The notes beneath the pieces are model-generated. The model ran no database searches. It was not told where the DNA came from and was given only the letters and a program-made list of their open reading frames with translations. Of a DNA stretch of 64,000 nt, positions 1,673 to 49,997 are shown in pieces (position 1 is the first letter of the stretch; each line of letters opens with the position of its first letter). This DNA comes from Planctomycetota bacterium (GTDB taxonomy: Bacteria > Planctomycetota > Phycisphaerae > UBA1845 > UTPLA1), in assembly GCA_003576905.1 (NCBI GenBank), contig QEVG01000018.1:1-64000 (forward strand), in the 5' to 3' direction. The position numbers were made by a program, and so were the translations under genes.

Positions 1673-1716
1673 AAAGCGGGCGATGGGATTCGAACCCACG
1701 ACGTCCAGCTTGGGAA
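1673..1716. repeat. attL: left 44-bp attachment repeat
   Basis: This sequence is identical to positions 49924-49967. It covers the tRNA-Gly acceptor 3' strand, T-arm, variable loop and anticodon stem up to the anticodon loop, preceded by AAA. Identity stops at 1717, where the tRNA 5' half is missing, so this copy is an integration scar and not a functional tRNA. The surrounding 1556-1863 interval (308 bp) has no other gene. Confidence 0.93.
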
Positions 1717-38313: not shown

Positions 38314-41238
38314 ATGGCATTGAAACCTTGGTACAACGCAATTTTCCCCCGCGAGGATCTGCGCGAAGGCAAGCCGCTGGATGCTTCCGAATTCGCCGTG
38401 CACCTCGACCAGGTGCGCGACGGCCGAGCCAATCCGGACTATCAGGACCCCGCGCGGTTCTTCAGCAAGACCTATCTGACCAAGAATCTGCTCGCCGTTG
38501 CCGCGGAAGCGGTTCGCCGGTTGTCGGGAATTAAGACCGAGACCTCAGCCGTATTCAACATGACCACCCAGTTCGGCGGCGGAAAGACGCACGCTCTTAC
38601 CTTGCTTTACCACCTCGCGCGCGCGGGCAAGGACGCCAAGGGCTGGACGGGAGTGAGTTCAATTCTGGAACGGGCGGGTGTTGCGGAACTCGCCAAGGCG
38701 GAAATCGGCGTATTCGTTGGCACCGAATTCGATTCCATCACCGGCCGGGGCGGGCAGGACGGCACGCCGCTTCGCAAGACGCCGTGGGGTGAACTCGCAT
38801 GGCAAATCGGCGGCAAAGAGGGATTCCAGGCCGTCGCCGAGCACGAGAAAAAGCTCATCGCGCCTGCCGGCGAAGTCATTCGATCGTTTCTTCCCAAGGA
38901 AAAGCCATGCCTGATCCTTATGGACGAGCTGATGAACTACGTCAGCCGAAACCGCAAGAGCGGCTTGGCGACGCAGCTTTACAATTTTCTTCAGAATCTC
39001 TCGGAGGAAGTACGCGGACAGGAGAGAGTCGTGTTAGTCGTATCCATCCCGGCGAGCGAATTAGAGATGAACGCCGAGGACCAGGCCGACTACGATCGCT
39101 TTAAGAAAGTGCTCGACCGACTCGGCAAGGCAGTCATAATGTCCGCGGAGACCGAGACTGCGGAAATCATCCGCCGCCGACTGTTTGAATGGGACGGCAT
39201 CACGAAAGACGCGGACAAGACAATTACCGCATTCGCGGAATGGGCTGTTGACCACCGGACACAGATTCCTGGATGGTTTCCGGTTGACAACGCGCGAGAA
39301 GCATTCCGGTCATCCTACCCCTTTCACCCTGTTCTGCTTTCCGTGTTTGAACGAAAGTGGCAGCAGTTGCCCCGCTTCCAACAGACCCGCGGCATTCTGC
39401 GCTTGCTCGCCCTTTGGGTTTCGAAGGCGTATCACGACGGATTCAAGGGCGCCCACAAAGACCCGTTGATCGGATTGGGCACGGCGCCACTCGACGACCC
39501 GTTCTTTCGCACGGCTGTCTTTGAGCAACTCGGCGAAGCCAAGTTAGAGGGTGCTGTCACGACTGACATATGCGGCAAGCGCGAATCGCACGCGGATAAG
39601 CTCGACCGCGAGGCCGTAGAGGACATCAGGAAGGCCCGCCTGCATCGCAAGGTCGCGACCGCGGTTTTCTTTGAATCAAACGGCGGCCAGATGCGGGCAG
39701 AGGCCACCGTACCCGAAATCCAGCTAGCCGTCGGAGAGCCAGATCTCGACATCGGTCACATTCAGACCGTTATGGAAACCCTTATCCAATCTTGCTACTA
39801 CCTCTCCGCCGAGCGCAACCGTTACCGATTCAGCACGACGGAGAACTTGATCAAGCGATTCTCCGATCGTCGTGCAAGCATATCCGACAAGGCCATCGAT
39901 GAACGCGCCCGCGCAGAGATTCAGAAGGTCTTCGCCCCACATGAGGGAATCGAACGCATTTTTTTCCCTGATAAGAGCAACGCCATTCCCGATCGGCCCG
40001 CCTTAGTTCTGAGCGTGCTTGCTCCCGAGCATTCGATCGACGAGGAGTCCGCAACTTTGGCCCATGCCAAGACCATGACATGGGAATGTGGCAAATCGGG
40101 CCGAACGTTTAAGAGTGCAATCATTTGGTCCATTCCCGAGTCCGCCCAAATTCTGCGTGATGAGGCTCGCAAGGCTCTGGCATGGGAAGCAATCGAGGCT
40201 GAGAAGGATGAGTTGCACATTGAAGAAAGCCAGAAGCGCCAGCTCGGCGAGTACGTCGGCCGGTCTAAACGAGATCTCAAAGAAGCCGTCTGGCGAAGCT
40301 ACAAGTTCCTTTTGCTGCTCGGTAAGGACAACGAGCTAAAAAAGACTGACCTTGGGCTCGTAAACTCCAGCCAAGGCGGCTCGCTCATCGAGGTGATCCT
40401 CAAGCGGCTTCGTGATGATGGGGATATCGAGAAAACTCCGAGTCCCAATTATCTGGTTCGCAAATGGCCGGGCTTCAAGGAATGGAGCACGAAAGCTGTA
40501 CGCGATGCGTTTTTCGCATCGCCCGAATTCCCCAGGCTTCTAAATGCAGAGGCCGTGAAAGAGACCATCGCCAGGGGCGTCAGCGAACGCATCCTTGCAT
40601 ACGCTGGAAAACGTCCCGACGGCCGTTACGAACCGTTCGTCTTCGAACGAGAACTGACACCGGCTGAGGTGGAGATATCAGACGATGTATTCATTCTCAC
40701 CGCAGAGGAAGCCAAGAGACACGTCGAGCCACCGAAATTGACGACACTTTCGATCACACCACAAGACGCGCAGGTCAAGCCAGAGGCCCATGTCGCCTTT
40801 CAAGCCCGCGGGGCCGACCAGCATGGCAGGCCCATTGCTCTACCACACGTTGCATGGACAGCCAAAGGTGGAGTGATTGATGACAAGGGTGGCTTTACAG
40901 CGGGCAAGCAAGAAGGAAGTTTTCTCATTGAAGCGGCCGCCGAGAGCATTTCCGCGCAGGCTACCGTTGCAATCACCAAGGACGAATCGCGACCGCCTCC
41001 TCAGCCACCACCGAAGCGGGAGGCGAAGACCCTTCGCTGGACCGGCCAAATTCCACCACAAAAATGGATGAACTTCTACACGAAGGTGCTCGCGAAGTTT
41101 GCCAACACGTCCGATTTGAAACTTAACGTCAGCTTTGAAGTGACCCCCGACGGCGGCCTGTCCACTTCTCGAATCGAGGAAACCAAGGCTACGCTCCGCG
41201 AACTTGGATTGGATGACGATGTACAGTCGGATACTTGA
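38314..41238 (+). CDS. DUF499 (COG1483-type) AAA+ ATPase with C-terminal Ig-like insert
   Basis: This is a 974-residue ATPase of the DUF499 family: KPWYNAIFPREDLREG at the N-terminus, FFSKTYLTKNL, Walker A TTQFGGGKTHAL near residue 90, Walker B CLILMDELMNYVSRN near 200, LVVSIPASE, and FHPVLLSVFERKW. It is the partner of DUF1156 methylases in defence neighbourhoods. Residues about 810-890 (TLSITPQDAQVKPEAHVAFQ ... AATVAI-like end) read as a bacterial Ig-like (BIg2) domain, unexpected in a cytoplasmic ATPase. A final 60-residue domain (KWMNFYTKVLAKFANTSDLK) follows. It is the last gene of the operon and is followed by a terminator hairpin. Confidence 0.88.
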   Translation: MALKPWYNAIFPREDLREGKPLDASEFAVHLDQVRDGRANPDYQDPARFFSKTYLTKNLLAVAAEAVRRLSGIKTETSAVFNMTTQFGGGKTHALTLLYHLARAGKDAKGWTGVSSILERAGVAELAKAEIGVFVGTEFDSITGRGGQDGTPLRKTPWGELAWQIGGKEGFQAVAEHEKKLIAPAGEVIRSFLPKEKPCLILMDELMNYVSRNRKSGLATQLYNFLQNLSEEVRGQERVVLVVSIPASELEMNAEDQADYDRFKKVLDRLGKAVIMSAETETAEIIRRRLFEWDGITKDADKTITAFAEWAVDHRTQIPGWFPVDNAREAFRSSYPFHPVLLSVFERKWQQLPRFQQTRGILRLLALWVSKAYHDGFKGAHKDPLIGLGTAPLDDPFFRTAVFEQLGEAKLEGAVTTDICGKRESHADKLDREAVEDIRKARLHRKVATAVFFESNGGQMRAEATVPEIQLAVGEPDLDIGHIQTVMETLIQSCYYLSAERNRYRFSTTENLIKRFSDRRASISDKAIDERARAEIQKVFAPHEGIERIFFPDKSNAIPDRPALVLSVLAPEHSIDEESATLAHAKTMTWECGKSGRTFKSAIIWSIPESAQILRDEARKALAWEAIEAEKDELHIEESQKRQLGEYVGRSKRDLKEAVWRSYKFLLLLGKDNELKKTDLGLVNSSQGGSLIEVILKRLRDDGDIEKTPSPNYLVRKWPGFKEWSTKAVRDAFFASPEFPRLLNAEAVKETIARGVSERILAYAGKRPDGRYEPFVFERELTPAEVEISDDVFILTAEEAKRHVEPPKLTTLSITPQDAQVKPEAHVAFQARGADQHGRPIALPHVAWTAKGGVIDDKGGFTAGKQEGSFLIEAAAESISAQATVAITKDESRPPPQPPPKREAKTLRWTGQIPPQKWMNFYTKVLAKFANTSDLKLNVSFEVTPDGGLSTSRIEETKATLRELGLDDDVQSDT

Positions 41239-41340: not shown

Positions 41341-41376
41341 TAAGCCCGTGCTGCGTCCGTTTGGGACGCGGGCTTA
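41341..41376. terminator. Hairpin between convergent genes
   Basis: TAAGCCC/GGGCTTA (outer) and GCGTCC/GGACGC (inner) enclose a GTTTG loop with a 5-nt bulge. It lies 100 bp after the DUF499 stop and overlaps the last codon of the convergent minus-strand gene. It lacks a long T-run. Confidence 0.5.
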
Positions 41377-42054
41377 TCCTTCTCCGCCGGGACGCTCCCG
41401 GGCATCGACTGCCGCTCCACCTTCGGTTGAGCCACCTTTTCCCTCTTGGGCTTCGGAGCGCCGTGGCGCTTCGAGCCGTGTCCGTGATAGGGTCCGCCGC
41501 CATTCGACATAGGACTTCTCCTTTCCGGAGTCTGTGTCCGCCTTCAGCACCTGCGAAACGCGGACGTAGTACTTGCGAAGCGTGTCCCGCGACGTTGCAA
41601 AGAGCACCGCTTCGACGATCACAAATCCGGCGTCAACCCAGCCTGGGCCGCCGCACCATCGGCAGCCGCCGGCGAGCCGGCTTCCGTATGCCAGCAGCAC
41701 AGCGACAAACGTGTTCGCGTTGAACTGGTAGTAGCGATAGTGGAACTCCACCAGCAGGTTGTACGCAGCCAGGTTCTCCTGAAGCTGCGAAAAGTCCCAT
41801 TTTGGATGCCGTATGCCGGTTCGATGATGAATCGAATCGAGCAGCAGCCACCGAATCGAGCTGACCAGCATTCCGGCGGCAATTGAAGCCAGCGTCACAA
41901 ACAGAAATCCGCCCACGGTCGGCTGTCCGTCCGGCGCCGTCGCCAGCCAGGGCTGGATCGTGGGCACGAGGCCGCTCACGGCTATCACCGCGACGAATCC
42001 AGGCACCAGGTATGCAATCACCAGCCCGAAGTTCCGGGCCGAAAGCTCTCCCAC
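41374..42054 (-). CDS. Membrane protein of unknown function
   Basis: This 226-residue protein has hydrophobic segments near residues 8-28 (FGLVIAYLVPGFVAVIAVSG), 47-66 (GGFLFVTLASIAAGMLVSSI), 112-128 and 138-152, then a basic, arginine/glycine-rich cytoplasmic tail. No family is recognised. The gene is divergent from the small XRE regulator, with a large palindromic operator between them, so both may be controlled by that regulator. Confidence 0.65.
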   Translation of the reverse strand: MGELSARNFGLVIAYLVPGFVAVIAVSGLVPTIQPWLATAPDGQPTVGGFLFVTLASIAAGMLVSSIRWLLLDSIHHRTGIRHPKWDFSQLQENLAAYNLLVEFHYRYYQFNANTFVAVLLAYGSRLAGGCRWCGGPGWVDAGFVIVEAVLFATSRDTLRKYYVRVSQVLKADTDSGKEKSYVEWRRTLSRTRLEAPRRSEAQEGKGGSTEGGAAVDARERPGGEG

Positions 42055-42401: not shown

Positions 42402-43088
42402 TCAAGTGCCGGACTGCCCAACCTCAAGCCCAATCTCCGTGTCAACCTCCGCCAATCCCGGCGGCTCGTCAAAAGGTCGAACCACGCGACGTCGAAGTCG
42501 AAGCGCCGATACCGGCACCGGCTCAAAGTCAGCGGCAGTCCGAAGTCGATTCACGGCTCGCAGCAGGTTTAGCAGTTGCCGCCTGACCGGGGCATATCCC
42601 TCGAACCGAAGTCCACGAAACTCAGCCATGAGATTCTCCACCGAACGATGGCACGCGATGTCGAGCAGGTATGCCTTTTGTCGTCGGTATTCCTCTGGGT
42701 GGATTCGCACTGACGGATGCCATTGACGGTCAACGCCGCGGCGATAACCGATGCTGTAGCCCCCGAAGCGGATCGCATCGCGACGCACATCCTTATGGTT
42801 GGGCTCGTTCAGAAAAAATCGGTGCTCACCACGGGACGCGATCAGCACAAAGAACCGGCCATGCCGGATGTAATGGACATTTGCCTGTCCGGCTCGCTTT
42901 CGCCGGGCACGCGCCCATTTTGATAGGCCCGCGTCATATTGCTCCAGCAGCTTTTCATCGATCCGGCGCGGGTCCTTCCGCTCCGGGATCATGCCCGTGA
43001 TGTAGAACCAGTACCCATGCCCTATGTAGCTCAAGGCGAGCTGTTGGACGAACCCCTCGACCGAAGCTGCAACACACCGATACGCCAT
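42402..43088 (-). CDS. Conserved hypothetical protein of integrative elements
   Basis: From the ATG at 43088 there are 228 residues; a GTG at 43103 is an alternative. Conserved-looking blocks are AYRCVAASVEGFVQQLALSY, GYWFYITGMIPERKDPRRID, SKWARARRKRAGQANVHYIR, HGRFFVLIASRGEHRFF, DAIRFGGYSIGYR and YAPVRRQLLNLLRAVNRLR. I know this pattern as an uncharacterised family common near integrases in planctomycetes and some proteobacteria. It is basic and arginine-rich, which suggests nucleic-acid binding, but no catalytic motif is clear. It is convergent with the XRE regulator, with 6 bp between the stop codons. Confidence 0.7.
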   Translation of the reverse strand: MAYRCVAASVEGFVQQLALSYIGHGYWFYITGMIPERKDPRRIDEKLLEQYDAGLSKWARARRKRAGQANVHYIRHGRFFVLIASRGEHRFFLNEPNHKDVRRDAIRFGGYSIGYRRGVDRQWHPSVRIHPEEYRRQKAYLLDIACHRSVENLMAEFRGLRFEGYAPVRRQLLNLLRAVNRLRTAADFEPVPVSALRLRRRVVRPFDEPPGLAEVDTEIGLEVGQSGT

Positions 43089-43210: not shown

Positions 43211-43735
43211 CTACTTGCTGTTGATGCCTAATCGGCGTTCCCTGAGACGACGCTTGGCCCCTTCGCTCATCGCCTTTAGCAATTCATAGTTGCCATACAC
43301 CTCACTTGGCAGCGTGGGTGCACCAGCCAGAGAGGATTCGTAATCACACATTGCGCTCTCAAATTCGCAACGTTCGAAATGCAGATTGGCTCGATTTAGC
43401 AAATATGTAGAATTATTAGGACAGTTTTCGATCGCCTCGTCATATTTCATTAGCGCCGTATCGAGATCTTTGTTGTTCCATGCAGTCAGAGCTTCAGCCG
43501 CGATACGCTCATGCAATTCAAATCCCGGCATCGTGCATGCAGACTGGAAAAGCTTCCCCTGTTGCTCCCGTGGCAATGACATCCAAGTGCCAAGCCACTG
43601 TCGAATCCAGGCGAAGCCGCGACGTTGGGGAACAACAAGTTGGGCTCCACACCGTCCACACTTCGGCACCTCCATCTGCTCATGCGGACGAATCCGATTA
43701 GTGGTACGGCACTTCAGACACTTAACGTACTCCAT
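43211..43735 (-). CDS. Zinc-ribbon and tetratricopeptide protein
   Basis: From the ATG at 43735 the protein has 174 residues. Residues 5-30 are a zinc ribbon (VKCLKCRTTNRI, PKCGRCGAQLVV). Residues about 85-160 contain TPR-like helices (AAEALTAWNNKDLDTALMKY, LNRANLHFERCEFESAMCDY). TPRs mediate protein contacts; the zinc ribbon resembles the ribbon that precedes such repeats in other bacterial proteins. No specific function can be given. It lies downstream, on the same strand, of the group II-like RNA region. Confidence 0.65.
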   Translation of the reverse strand: MEYVKCLKCRTTNRIRPHEQMEVPKCGRCGAQLVVPQRRGFAWIRQWLGTWMSLPREQQGKLFQSACTMPGFELHERIAAEALTAWNNKDLDTALMKYDEAIENCPNNSTYLLNRANLHFERCEFESAMCDYESSLAGAPTLPSEVYGNYELLKAMSEGAKRRLRERRLGINSK

Positions 43736-44102
43736 TGCATTCACCGAACCTGACACATTACCCACGGTCGATGGCCCTGAAAGCGAGCCACATGCGTTTA
43801 GTCCTAATCAGTCAAAAGACTAATGTCGCTGTCGCTGTAAATATCACGAGCACAAGAAGCATTCAAATCCACCCGAAACGAAAGTGGGATTGTTCAAAGG
43901 CACAATCCCCAAAGCCCATGAAACCACCTGATGACGGAGGGCCGCTGCGCCCGTCTCGGCCGTCGCGGCTCCGCATCCCAACCTCTCTTCAAATCCTCAT
44001 TTTGTTGTGACACCTCCTCGCCACGTCGCGCATCCGGGCGCGCCGTCCGTATTCCAGATCGGCCCCCGCCCAATACATACGCGTAGCGCAGCAAAAACCT
44101 CC
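43736..44102. other. Gene-free spacer next to the group II-like RNA
   Basis: No gene or clear structure is seen in these 367 bp. Composition in its left half is less GC-rich than the flanks. Confidence 0.4.
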
Positions 44103-45180
44103 GGCGAATCCTGGATACACATCCAGTGTTCGCCGTCATTCCGCCATCAAAAGACGACTCACGTCCCCGTGAGACCTCTTTCGATCGCAGCATCGTCCTT
44201 CCCAGGAACCGGCCGGCGGGGGGGCTTCTCGCCTACCCCGCCGACCGCACGCTTCAAGATGGAAATGACCCGTCACCGCTTTCGTTGTCGTACATCCCCG
44301 GCACCACCCGTAAGGACACAAACGGCGCACCACTGCCTTGCAGTGCATCCGCTCCGCTCCCGCGGACTTCTACTTGCGGCACTCTCCCAGACTACGGCCT
44401 TTGAATCACCTGCTGAACAAGCAGGCACCGGGCACCACCCCGGCAGCCGCAGCCCTTCCCCGGTTATTGATAGTCGTCGCACAATCGGTCACGTCGGTAG
44501 GGCCGGTTAAGGCCCGGTCCGGCAGCGTATGTCCGAGGCTCCCGCCCCGGCATAGTTTCCGCCCGCATAATCGCGGACGATTTCGAGGCGCAGAATACAG
44601 AAGCTCGCCCCTACCCCATCGCTGCGGGATATTCCCTGTTCGGCACCGTCTCCGATTGCACTGACCGGCAAGGGCTTGATGCCCATTTCATCGTTGAGCT
44701 TTTCACCGTCCGCCTTTGTTCGACGGATCGCCGGGCATTGTCATCACCCGGTTCCGCGTGTCGCCACGCGGAAGCTCCCGACGCCGGCAAGCGTTGAACG
44801 AACCTGACGGGACTTGCACCCGAATTGCCTTTCGGCTTTGGTCCGGACCCCGCTGGGGGATTTTCACCCCTTCGACCATCACGGCCCGCCTTGCGGCAGG
44901 TCTGTCCCGGTCGCCCGATTTCCAGTTGCACTATGGGATAGAACTACAGGATTGCTCCAACGAACTACGTCGCAGGGATTACTCTGTAGAGCCTCCCTCG
45001 AACCGGACGAGCCTGTCTCCAGGCATCCGGCTCTACGGGTCGTGAACCTTGACGGCTGGTGAAGCGCGTCCCCTTAGTCCCGATGGTGAATCGGGATTTA
45101 CCGGGCGGTCCACGCCCATCTTAAAGCGTCAGATACGCGGTTTGCGTTCCTGACAGCCGCGGGATCGGTGATCCCGCTGG
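44103..45180 (-). ncRNA. Candidate circularly permuted group II ribozyme (domains V-VI before domain I)
   Basis: On the minus strand, reading from high to low coordinates, hairpins at 45180-45040 are followed by a 34-nt domain V (45033-45000) with the AGC catalytic triad, GAGA tetraloop, two-base bulge and the closing GUUC. Domain VI (44998-44974) has an AGGGA/TCCCT stem and bulged adenosines. After about 37 nt comes GTGCA (44931), resembling the GUGYG intron start, and domain I-like elements: GGGGTGAAAATCCCC (44870-44856), GCCGAAAGGC (44836-44827), CGGGTGCAAGTCCCG (44822-44808) and the EBS-type region around 44690-44590. No reverse transcriptase is present. A hairpin at 44134-44103 may close the RNA. 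Two adjacent broken ordinary introns are the main alternative. Confidence 0.65.
45000..45033 (-). ncRNA. Group II intron domain V
   Basis: It is exactly 34 nt long. The lower stem GAGCCGGA pairs with TCCGGTTC, with the AGC of the catalytic triad facing GTT. The upper stem GCCTG/CAGGC is closed by a GAGA (GNRA) tetraloop, with TCG at the bulge position. Compared with the common ACG bulge the first base differs. Confidence 0.88.
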
Positions 45181-45283
45181 TAGCCACCATAGCGCGAACA
45201 TCATTTCCAATCAAACTGCTAGCCGACCGCAAACCCGCGCGCCAATGCCGATCAAATCGCGTGCCCGATTCGTCCGAAATCCA

Positions 45284-46486
45284 TCACTCGTCTTCTTTCA
45301 GCTTTACCAGTCCGGGCAGTCGCTCTTCAACGCAAGTACCGAGCAAGAAAGCGACTGCCACCATTACCGCGACACCTGCACGTGGAAAATCTGCGGCAGG
45401 AAGCACATCGACTAGCAACTCAGTGAGCTTTGCCCCTACTCCGCCTACGACTGCGATTCCAAGCAGCGCGATAGTTCTTGCTGGTTGCCTCGGTTTCCGG
45501 CCAACTTCTCGCTTCCATGTGAAGAAGATAACTCCCAGAAAAAACCCAATTGCTAACGTCCACGAAAGCAGCGAATTTAGTCGGCTTCGCCAATCGGGCA
45601 TCACCCTGAACGCCGCCGATTCAACACCGCGCAGTGCGGCTGTCATTTCCGGATGCTTTGCAATTTCCCACCATACAATAAGATGAACCTGCGATGGCCC
45701 TCCACCCTTCGCCCTGCTAACTCCGTCCAATATCGCGGAAAACGAATCTTCAAATGAAAGGACCAATTCTCGCTCAACCACATGCTGTGCCCCTGCTAGG
45801 GCCGGAATTGCGATTGATCTATCTTTCATCCGCCCAGAATCTTGCACCGTTTCCATCACGCATCGTGAAATAGCTTGAACCAAGACAGTCTTGTACTCCC
45901 CGCCCAGATCTTCCATGAATTCAAACAGATTGACAGCATAGATCGCCTTGATGCTCGTAACGTGCGCATATTTCGATGCCTCGGGAACATCAATACGCGT
46001 CAGTCGTTCGAAGTGCCAATCTTGAGGACCACGTTTCAAGCCGAGTGTTCGAGCCAACGCTTCGCCAAACTCCCGGTCGAGACTGCCCACACTGTGCACA
46101 ACCGACATAGGCAACAACGTCCACGGGATGGTCAAGGTTGTACCGTCTTTGGTTGAAATCGCATCAGGTACCGGCGCACTAATCAAGAACGAGTCCCAAT
46201 ACTTTACGCGATTATTGAATTCCCATCCCTGCGAAGTTGCGCGTACCGCACGGTTAGGAATCACGACATCACCAACTTGCAAGTACACATCAATCTGGTT
46301 CAGCCGCCCAAGCAATTGTGGCGCGGAAAACGGATTCTGGACCCTGACCGATGGAAGCAACATCAGTGCAACAAGATATCCACAAAGGCCAAGTAACAGA
46401 CTCACAATCACGCGCCGTTGTAATGCACGCCGCGAAAGGCCTGATACACGACCGACCCATTGCTTCGACCGCTTCTTCAAGACCAT
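45284..46486 (-). CDS. Membrane protein of unknown function
   Basis: From the ATG at 46486 there are 400 residues; a GTG at 46501 is possible. A transmembrane helix lies near residues 22-45 (VIVSLLLGLCGYLVALMLLP). A large soluble domain of about 260 residues follows (VGDVVIPNRAVRATSQGWEF, RIDVPEASKYAHVTSIKAIY), then three C-terminal helices (SWTLAIGFFLGVIFFTW, TIALLGIAVVGGVGAKLTEL, VAVMVAVAFLLGTCV). No family is recognised. It is transcribed towards the group II-like RNA, which begins about 100 bp after its stop, so the RNA may be read from the same promoter. Confidence 0.65.
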   Translation of the reverse strand: MVLKKRSKQWVGRVSGLSRRALQRRVIVSLLLGLCGYLVALMLLPSVRVQNPFSAPQLLGRLNQIDVYLQVGDVVIPNRAVRATSQGWEFNNRVKYWDSFLISAPVPDAISTKDGTTLTIPWTLLPMSVVHSVGSLDREFGEALARTLGLKRGPQDWHFERLTRIDVPEASKYAHVTSIKAIYAVNLFEFMEDLGGEYKTVLVQAISRCVMETVQDSGRMKDRSIAIPALAGAQHVVERELVLSFEDSFSAILDGVSRAKGGGPSQVHLIVWWEIAKHPEMTAALRGVESAAFRVMPDWRSRLNSLLSWTLAIGFFLGVIFFTWKREVGRKPRQPARTIALLGIAVVGGVGAKLTELLVDVLPAADFPRAGVAVMVAVAFLLGTCVEERLPGLVKLKEDE

Positions 46487-46848
46487 GTCGCCATGCCTCA
46501 CGCGGAGCTGTTCAAGCCACAGTGCAGCATACCAGATTGCCTTGCACGTCCCCGTTAAGGCAAATTATTCTGATCCAATATCCGCGATTCGCTCGCCCCG
46601 TCGGGACCACTCCGGTGCTCGCTCGAAACGTTGGAGGGGTTTTACGGCCGATCGCTCTGCTCTATCGGCCGGTTTGGCTTTGGAACCCCCGCACGCCGCC
46701 GGTTCCAAACCTCCCCCGCCCCCTTCTTTCCCCTCCGAAAATGCTGGGGCCGACGGGTTGGCGTACGCACCGGAAGTCCCCAAGCCCGGGCGCCTTGACT
46801 TGGCGGATTTGGCCGTTAGCATATATGCGAACACAGGAAAGGACTCGC
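46487..46848. other. Intergenic region between divergent genes
   Basis: No gene is supported. It carries the promoter and a possible operator of the XRE/ImmA pair at its right end and a purine/pyrimidine-biased stretch (CTCCCCCGCCCCC) near 46708. Confidence 0.45.
46795..46833 (+). promoter_or_regulatory. Promoter and possible operator of the XRE/ImmA pair
   Basis: TTGACT (46795-46800) and TAGCAT (46817-46822) are 16 bp apart. The palindrome GCATATATGC (46819-46828) overlaps the -10 box, and GCGAACA (46827-46833) recurs in the inverted repeat at 48010-48031, suggesting a shared half-site for the regulator. Confidence 0.5.
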
Positions 46849-47226
46849 GTGGCTCCAAGGAATACACCAATTGGCGAAGTGCTCAGGCGGCAGCGCGTGC
46901 AGGTCGTCAAAAAGGGGCTCCGCGAGATGGCCCGGCTGCTGGAGATCACGCCGCCGCACTTGACCGACATCGAAAAAGGACGCCGGGCACCATCCGAGGA
47001 ACTGCTGGTCCGAATCTGCCGGCATTACGACATCCCGGAGGCCGAGCTGCGCTCCGGTTGGAACAAGGCCGACACCGTCGTCGGGCAGGTGGCGACCCAG
47101 GATGCGGTGACCGCGGAAAAAGTGCCCGAGCTGCTTCGATCCGCCCGACGGCTCACATCGGACCAGTGGGATTCGCTCATCGACCAGGCCAAACGGATGT
47201 CCGCGGACAAGAAAGGCAGGAAGTAG
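46849..47226 (+). CDS. XRE-family repressor, ImmR-like
   Basis: The GTG at 46849 follows GGAAAGGA and gives 125 residues; an ATG at 46825 is also in frame but sits at the promoter. The helix-turn-helix is IGEVLRRQRVQVVKKGLREM, ARLLEITPPHLTDIEKGRRA, SEELLVRICRHYDIPEAEL. The C-terminal 60 residues are helical. The next gene, three bases on, encodes an HELAH metallopeptidase. XRE repressor plus ImmA/IrrE-type protease is the classic switch of integrative elements such as ICEBs1: damage activates the protease, which removes the repressor and induces excision. That role is inferred from the gene pair. Confidence 0.85.
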   Translation: MAPRNTPIGEVLRRQRVQVVKKGLREMARLLEITPPHLTDIEKGRRAPSEELLVRICRHYDIPEAELRSGWNKADTVVGQVATQDAVTAEKVPELLRSARRLTSDQWDSLIDQAKRMSADKKGRK

Positions 47227-47229
47227 CGC

Positions 47230-47991
47230 GTGGCCGCCTTGCCGATTGGCAATCTGTTTCACCCGCAGCCGGGCAACATCCGCGCCGAGCGAAACGCCGG
47301 CAAATGCCTCGAACGGTGCCGGCGGAAACTCGGGCTCACCGAGATTCCCTTGCCGGTGCCGGTCGACCAGTGGATTGAAACGGTCTTCGACATCGGCTTC
47401 GGAATCACAGACCTGTCGCACCTGGGAGCGGACGTGCTCGGGGCGGCCTACATCAAAGAGAACGAGATCGCCGTTGCTGAAACGGCGCTCAAGCACGACG
47501 GGCGCTTTCGTTTCACCTGTGCCCACGAGCTGGCCCACTTCGTCTTGCACGCGCACATTGCCGTCGTCTTTACCGACGGCGAGCTTCCGAGCCTGGAGCT
47601 GGCCAATCGACTTGACAGGGAAGCCGACAAATTCGCCGCGGCGTTTCTTTCGCCGCTACCGCTTCTGGAGCGAGAGATCGTGCGATTCTGTCGTAGCGAA
47701 CGGTTGGACCCGGAATACTGCCTTGCCGAGTTGATGGTGCCCTCGCCCGAATCGCTCTGGCTCTGGAAGGGGTTCTTGGTGCCGTTTCTGACACAGCGGT
47801 TCGGGATCTCCAAGACGGCGCTCGTCTATCGCTGCCAGGATCTGCGCGACTTGACCGATGAAAGCCGGTCGTTCATGCCGGCACGGATAAAAAACGCGAT
47901 CCTTGGAAATGCCTCCTTCGGCGAGCCGGTGCCGTCGATGCGAATCGTCAACGGGCGTCCGCAGCCGGTGGCCGAGAGCCCGAGGCGCTGA
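47230..47991 (+). CDS. ImmA/IrrE-family zinc metallopeptidase
   Basis: This 253-residue protein starts at a GTG three bases after the XRE repressor. The zinc-binding signature is CAHELAHFVLH (near residue 98) with the downstream acidic region RLDREADKFAAAFLSPLPLL. The N-terminal part (IPLPVPVDQWIETVFDIGFG) and the C-terminal part, including SPESLWLWKGFLVPFLTQRF and GISKTALVYRC, match long forms of this family. It probably cleaves or inactivates the partner repressor, freeing the element's excision genes downstream. The glutamate of HExxH is intact, so it should be active. Confidence 0.9.
   Translation: MAALPIGNLFHPQPGNIRAERNAGKCLERCRRKLGLTEIPLPVPVDQWIETVFDIGFGITDLSHLGADVLGAAYIKENEIAVAETALKHDGRFRFTCAHELAHFVLHAHIAVVFTDGELPSLELANRLDREADKFAAAFLSPLPLLEREIVRFCRSERLDPEYCLAELMVPSPESLWLWKGFLVPFLTQRFGISKTALVYRCQDLRDLTDESRSFMPARIKNAILGNASFGEPVPSMRIVNGRPQPVAESPRR

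Positions 47992-48696: not shown

Positions 48697-49997
<1,301 letters not shown>

Follow-up and report, generated by a model that had tools for sequence, protein, structure and literature searches.

Circularly permuted (CP) group II ribozymes have been described by Roth et al. in bacteria, with published members ("T-large" RNA) from Comamonas testosteroni, the Polaromonas plasmid pPNAP05 and the Thermus plasmid pTT8 (PMC8637638). Their layout comprises a 3' splice site of the form NU, a linker of 15-86 nt, a 5' splice site GGGCG and then domain I (D1) (PMC8637638). A protein found with them, AcpG ("associated with CP group II"), was left without an assigned function, and no homology to a known protein class was detected for it (PMC8637638). 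In P. naphthalenivorans, expression of the RNA was seen but processing was not (PMC8637638), and no biological role of these ribozymes is known to date. The main text of that paper mentions neither Planctomycetes nor Cyanobacteria nor Verrucomicrobia.

In this study, we examine a stretch of 64,000 nucleotides from a planctomycete genome, referred to here as the window. Its minus strand, from about 45,190 to 44,110, encodes what is, on the sequence evidence, a genuine CP group II ribozyme of the Roth et al. 2021 class; a sequence-only reading had placed such an RNA at 44103-45180, which is about right. Our main reading, to which we give a probability of roughly 0.8, is that this ribozyme has a protein partner in AcpG, a diverged maturase that does not copy RNA, and that the two are carried on a tRNA-Gly integrative element. 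The RNA adds a sound new example to an established class, and what deserves pursuit is the fold of the partner protein; the reading of AcpG as a mini-maturase is new within the literature searched.

Domain order, splice sites and relatives of the RNA

The Rfam model RF00029 (Intron_gpII; gathering cut-off 40 bits) matched D5 and D6 at 45035-44933 on the minus strand with 50.3 bits (E 6.7e-07 in the 64-kb window), and no CP group II match was returned for the window by Rfam 15 at the gathering or a relaxed threshold. Relatives were collected with a degenerate pattern, consisting of the D5 tail, D6, a linker and GGGCGA, which was run over all genome contigs and gave 35 stretches. Three candidates (L013, L026 and L028) lacked D5, were judged chance pattern matches and were dropped. 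The remaining loci belong to Planctomycetota, Verrucomicrobiota, Cyanobacteria, Acidobacteria and Proteobacteria; the named relatives are mostly Phycisphaerae/Planctomycetota, which agrees with the planctomycete host proposed earlier. Viral contigs held no CP RNA match, and BLASTN of the RNA against plasmids returned almost nothing because the RNA changes too quickly to be traced by sequence similarity. The plasmid copies that were found, in Planctomycetes bacterium K2D, Leptolyngbya, Calothrix and Planococcus, adjoin AcpG homologues. On the Calothrix plasmid (plasmid5, L006), two CP RNAs with near-identical linkers lie in tandem at 2780 and 4922, about 2 kb apart, with a single acpG after the second.

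Covariation among 18 full-length RNAs converges on a single fold that compensatory changes support in each domain; its order is P1-P2-D5-D6-linker-D1-D2-D3, closed by a split D4 stem, rather than the canonical D1-D6 order with splice sites outside. Together with the RF00029 match, this fold bears out the earlier observation that D5 and D6 precede D1-type sequence on the minus strand, and it answers the call for folding by placing D1, D2 and D3 at 44910-44274. Read 5' to 3' along the minus strand, the RNA begins with a P1-like hairpin (45159..45177; GCGGGAUC ACC GAUCCCGC) and a P2 hairpin (45051..45070), the loop of which, CACCA, pairs with the D2 loop UGGUG. These are followed by D5 (45000..45033) and by D6 (44935..44997) with an invariant bulged branch A at 44939; in 34 sequences, 20 of the 27 D5/D6 pairs show both-side compensatory changes. 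D1 (44460..44910) is closed by stems 44910-44907/44463-44460 and 44882-44874/44475-44467, both supported by covariation, and the covariation fold then gives D2 (44389..44455) and D3 (44274..44381). The 3' terminus of the conserved RNA forms a hairpin of 17 bp (44143..44188), 14 pairs of which occur in at least two Watson-Crick types.

Tandem copies that lost part of their sequence could yield such an order, and the phylum does harbour ordinary group II introns, so that the locus might be no more than functionless head-to-tail remnants of two introns, an old D5-D6 followed by an old D1-D4. We reject that reading, and hold it to be extremely improbable, because the two halves covary. The strand 5' of D5 (45035..45040) pairs with the strand 3' of D3 (44268..44273) in the covariation fold, and this helix is 97% paired in the 18 sequences, with 2 covarying pairs. 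The D4 stem of ordinary introns is its counterpart, and the ends of the window RNA thus fall inside D4, as permutation predicts. The P2-D2 pseudoknot, which is specific to CP RNAs, likewise links the halves: the loop pairs CACCA/UGGUG, CAUCA/UGAUG, UAUCA/UGAUA and UACCA/UGGUA are all seen, and none of 10,000 shuffles gave covariation as good, with pairing registers that were partly chosen by hand. Compensatory changes therefore run through all domains and between the halves, so that an origin from two separate introns, named in advance as the outcome that would overturn the CP interpretation, is not what the alignment shows. More than 30 distinct sequences from several phyla, moreover, share this order, the GGGCG motif and a short linker, and the window copy is intact and duplicated in its genome.

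The splice-site motifs follow the published layout. D6 ends with CTATCCCAT at its 3' side, and GGGCGACC starts 16 nt further on, at 44916. The intervening linker (44917..44932; AGUGCAACUGGAAAUC), a predicted 16-nt RNA circle, lies between CCCAU and GGGCG, the arrangement that Roth et al. describe (PMC8637638). The 5' splice-site motif GGGCGA (44911..44916) is invariant in 34 relatives, for most of which it had been part of the search pattern. A conserved D1 hairpin loop (44589..44606; GCUUCUGUAUUCUG) is probably EBS1, as its UUC complements GAA in the linker; the flanking positions do not covary consistently, and the EBS1-IBS1 pairing is only partly conserved.

A second RF00029 match in the source genome, on contig C61, likewise marks a CP RNA, whose linker between the same motifs is 40 nt long and differs in sequence. 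The two copies share their halves but not the linker, and a variable linker between conserved halves is what a functional CP RNA predicts. To relate these sequences to the published ones, a covariance model (R1) was built from the newly found sequences only. It recovered the published Polaromonas pPNAP05 RNA with 47.7 bits (E 1e-10) and the Planococcus copy with E 2e-10, and gave a weak match to the Thermus thermophilus pTT8 RNA (E 0.014); ordinary introns scored 23-26 bits, as opposed to 131-144 bits for the copies of the window genome. The covariance-model search that had been called for thus gave a D5-D6 match above the cut-off and a link to a published member.

Transcription probably begins close to 45,190, and conservation of the RNA stops near 44,110. 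A weak promoter-like element, TTGATT-17-TATGGT (45186..45214, minus strand), went unlisted by the promoter scanner because it has only 8 of 12 consensus bases; homology with the relatives L021, L034, L047, L050 and L055 begins at 45193-45199, and a TATGGT/TATCCT-like element is found again in Phycisphaerae relatives. Every defining sequence trait of the class for which the test gave a clear answer is present in the window RNA, namely the domain order, the splice motifs, the linker length, the branch A and the P2-D2 pseudoknot, and there is additionally no internal intron-encoded protein and an AcpG nearby.

The acpG gene and its pairing with the RNA

The gene on the 3' side of the RNA, acpG (42402..43088, ORF 43088-42405, minus strand), encodes 228 aa that searches of Pfam, NCBIfam, PHROGs and PDB sequences assign to no family. 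Profile comparison places it in one family with TTHC007, the AcpG of Thermus pTT8: a profile made without TTHC007 still finds it with E 8e-5 among 2513 ORFs, and the link is lost (E 0.9) when the Planococcus and gammaproteobacterial bridging members are left out as well. The RNA had been described as sitting between two unknown genes, a description that missed the identity of this neighbour.

Pairing of the two is the rule. Of the pattern-derived loci with sufficient flanking sequence, 24 have acpG downstream and in the same orientation, and two gammaproteobacterial loci carry it upstream and divergently oriented. Across 61 sampled relatives from the window's own planctomycete order, a strong RNA match was found in 26, AcpG in 25 and both in 24, so CP RNAs are common in that order; of the 36 RNA loci that are informative, 32 are followed by acpG on the same strand, the pairing being read from match coordinates. 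In the phylum at large, 8 of 294 genomes gave a strong RNA match and 7 encode AcpG; each of those 7 also has the RNA. Where the RNA lies upstream on the same strand, about 0.7-1.8 kb separates it from acpG, and the association spans several phyla, on plasmids and chromosomes alike. There are exceptions. Strong CP RNAs without AcpG nearby occur at L088 (G013), L089 (G055), L092 (G019) and L093 (G040), G019 and G040 having one such locus each, and the published pPNAP05 copy also lacks it. Conversely, genome G003 has AcpG with no CP RNA detected upstream (C1, ~2251316; L091). A truncated AcpG relic lies 1.15 kb 3' of an apparently intact Verrucomicrobiota CP RNA (L017:2172-2408).

These exceptions bear on a different view of the protein, in which the RNA is a CP group II ribozyme and AcpG is an unrelated palm-like protein that binds RNA or DNA in plasmid or element maintenance, the two being mere neighbours on mobile elements. 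Unpaired copies on either side are what such a view would allow, as are the ParA and Rep-like genes that recur near other CP loci and the lack of a significant sequence link between AcpG and maturases. The near-perfect co-occurrence, the constant orientation in planctomycetes and the spread of the link over several phyla, plasmids and chromosomes argue against it, as does the fold match described below, which is led by group II maturases and not by general palm or RRM proteins. We regard an unrelated AcpG as unlikely.

The same arrangement raises the possibility that the RNA is a cis-regulatory leader that serves to control the acpG operon and not to produce a circle, its splicing or folding gating AcpG output. 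Intron-encoded proteins autoregulate through D4a, and a leader hairpin that served as an AcpG site could act in a comparable way. Such a structure exists: a hairpin, probably an H-type pseudoknot (43886..43917, minus strand; GGGC ... UUGUGCC ... ACAAUCCC), recurs in relatives about 35-110 nt 5' of acpG in some 20 loci, outside the ribozyme, and in Leptolyngbya its pairing is kept through the compensatory change CUCGGU/ACCGAG. The constant placement of the RNA on the same strand, ~0.7-1.8 kb 5' of acpG, also fits a leader. Against this, acpG is divergent in the gammaproteobacterial and Thermus copies (PMC8637638) and published copies without acpG exist, and we consider a purely regulatory leader a doubtful explanation of the pairing. 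Between the hairpin and acpG, the window carries an ORF with weak Zn-ribbon/TPR matches (43211..43765, minus strand) that the genus relative L021 lacks; at this point the window carries about 780 nt more than L021.

The predicted fold of AcpG

An AlphaFold2 model of AcpG was computed from an alignment of 23 AcpG proteins (pLDDT 92.6) and compared with solved chains. The 14 best matches were bacterial reverse transcriptases (RTs), with group II maturases leading. The group II RTs and maturases 6me0, 8t2r, 8fli, 8t2s, 7uim, 6ar1 and 9d5x matched with Z 8.6-9.5 at 3.2-3.6 A over 159-189 of the 228 residues, of which 6me0, 8t2r and 8fli reached Z 9.5 and 3.6 A for aligned spans of 175-189 residues; 8h2h gave Z 10.3, but with an rmsd of 9.5. 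Prp8 came after the bacterial RTs, and the first matches outside RTs and Prp8 were viral RdRps (Z 6.0). Foldseek alone ranked retron RTs first (E 7e-4), and against viral models it gave weak RdRp matches only. A second model, of a gammaproteobacterial AcpG with 21% identity, was less confident (pLDDT 71.5); its top matches were helical bundles aligned to the thumb part alone, and its best full-length matches were group II RTs over the same span (Z 7-8).

In the model, the element order a-b-a-a-b-b-a-b-b-b-a-a-a would correspond to an RT palm followed by a three-helix thumb. The alignment begins at RT residue 102-156 and extends through the thumb, and the fingers (RT0-RT2) are thus absent from AcpG. 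The catalytic YxDD is found in none of the 23 proteins, the hairpin at its expected site reading YLRYGRFFVL and the like, and all are strongly basic, with a core net charge of +11 to +25. Profile-profile comparison (hhalign) with 19 maturases gave nothing above shuffled controls; in hmmsearch, maturases were marginally enriched over decoys (p 0.02), the aligning segments lying at the YADD hairpin and where RT7 meets the thumb. Since profile comparison is not significant, the maturase link rests on structure, collinearity and context. AcpG resembles a maturase and probably works like one; we stop short of counting it as an established member of that family. The sequence-only reading had noted that the region has no reverse transcriptase gene. 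This holds at the level of sequence, as RVT_1 has no match anywhere in the source genome (97% complete), but not at the level of predicted structure, where AcpG has the fold of a catalytically dead RT or maturase.

The integrative element, a proposed mechanism and known systems

The RNA and acpG are carried on a 48-kb tRNA-Gly integrative element. The integrative setting proposed earlier is confirmed by a perfect 44-bp direct att repeat in tRNA-Gly (1673..1716 and 49924-49967, plus strand) and a tyrosine integrase at one end (48697..49986, plus strand; Phage_integrase 3e-16), which adjoins tRNA-Gly(CCC) at 49926-49997. Divergent from the ribozyme lie an XRE-type HTH regulator (46351..47226, plus strand; HTH_31 3.7e-10), the true start of which is probably internal, and an ImmA/IrrE-type peptidase (47230..47991, plus strand; Peptidase_M78 5.8e-10); a membrane ORF (46501-45284) also lies inside the module, as does the Zn-ribbon/TPR ORF. 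Directly 3' of acpG is a membrane-protein ORF (41374..42054, minus strand) that is kept in 5 loci. The ImmA/IrrE, XRE, AcpG and downstream membrane-protein genes surround both genome copies in matching order, with identities of about 50-77%, the XRE homologue beside the second copy being 77% identical. This conserved module is a place to look for the role of the CP RNA. Elsewhere in the element, a DUF499 ATPase-like gene (38314-41238) is possibly part of a defence island.

By analogy with the biochemistry published for other CP ribozymes, the bulged branch A at 44939 would attack the 5' splice site ahead of GGGCG (44917/44916), and the freed linker end would next attack the 3' splice site (44933/44932). 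The predicted outcome is the release of a 16-nt RNA circle, with D5-D6 left attached through a 2'-5' bond to the RNA that carries D1-D4. In the reading proposed here, AcpG is a diverged group II maturase in which the RT palm and thumb survive while the fingers and the YxDD motif of the active site are gone. Its part would be to hold the ribozyme in the active conformation at the Mg2+ levels of the cell by binding to it, a task that maturases and Prp8 also perform, and it would not copy RNA. More speculatively, should acpG be cotranscribed with the ribozyme, its message may come out of splicing with a branched 5' part. With no recognisable RT in the genome, retrohoming of the window RNA is unlikely, and the pair is probably kept by the element for RNA processing and not for spread.

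We favour, as a reasonably probable account, an RT-derived, catalytically dead and fingerless mini-maturase that has been rebuilt with its ribozyme into a splicing RNP that does not transpose and yields circular and branched RNA; in bacteria, this would parallel the change from a group II maturase to Prp8. If AcpG is such a stripped maturase, ribozyme and protein form a complete splicing RNP that gave up retrotransposition; an orphan gene gains a testable job, in binding and in splicing at low Mg2+; and the conversion of Prp8 to a non-catalytic scaffold gains a bacterial comparison.

The window RNA resembles published CP RNAs in its domain order, NU/GGGCG motifs, 16-nt linker and P2-D2 pseudoknot, and in having no internal ORF, an AcpG nearby and a location on a mobile element. 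It differs from them in its planctomycete host, in the two diverged copies in one genome, in having acpG 3' of the RNA in the same orientation and preceded by a conserved leader hairpin, and in the XRE/ImmA and membrane-protein neighbours that the copies share. TTHC007 of Thermus pTT8 is a distant relative of the window AcpG (18% identity) and is divergently oriented. With canonical group II introns (Ll.LtrB, T.el4h and the E. rectale IIC intron), the RNA shares the sequence and structure of D5/D6, the D1-D3 architecture and, by analogy, the branch-point chemistry; in contrast to them, it has no RT ORF in D4, and D5-D6 precede D1, which would make its products a circle and a branched RNA. AcpG, at about 190-265 aa, differs from group II maturases in lacking RT0-2 fingers and YxDD, in being encoded outside the ribozyme and in having no significant sequence similarity to them. 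Like these maturases, it is encoded beside a group II ribozyme; like group II maturases and RTs (6me0, 8t2r, 8fli and 6ar1) and Prp8, it is basic, with a predicted fold that fits the palm-thumb span. Prp8, as AcpG would be, is a non-catalytic core protein with an RT-like fold.
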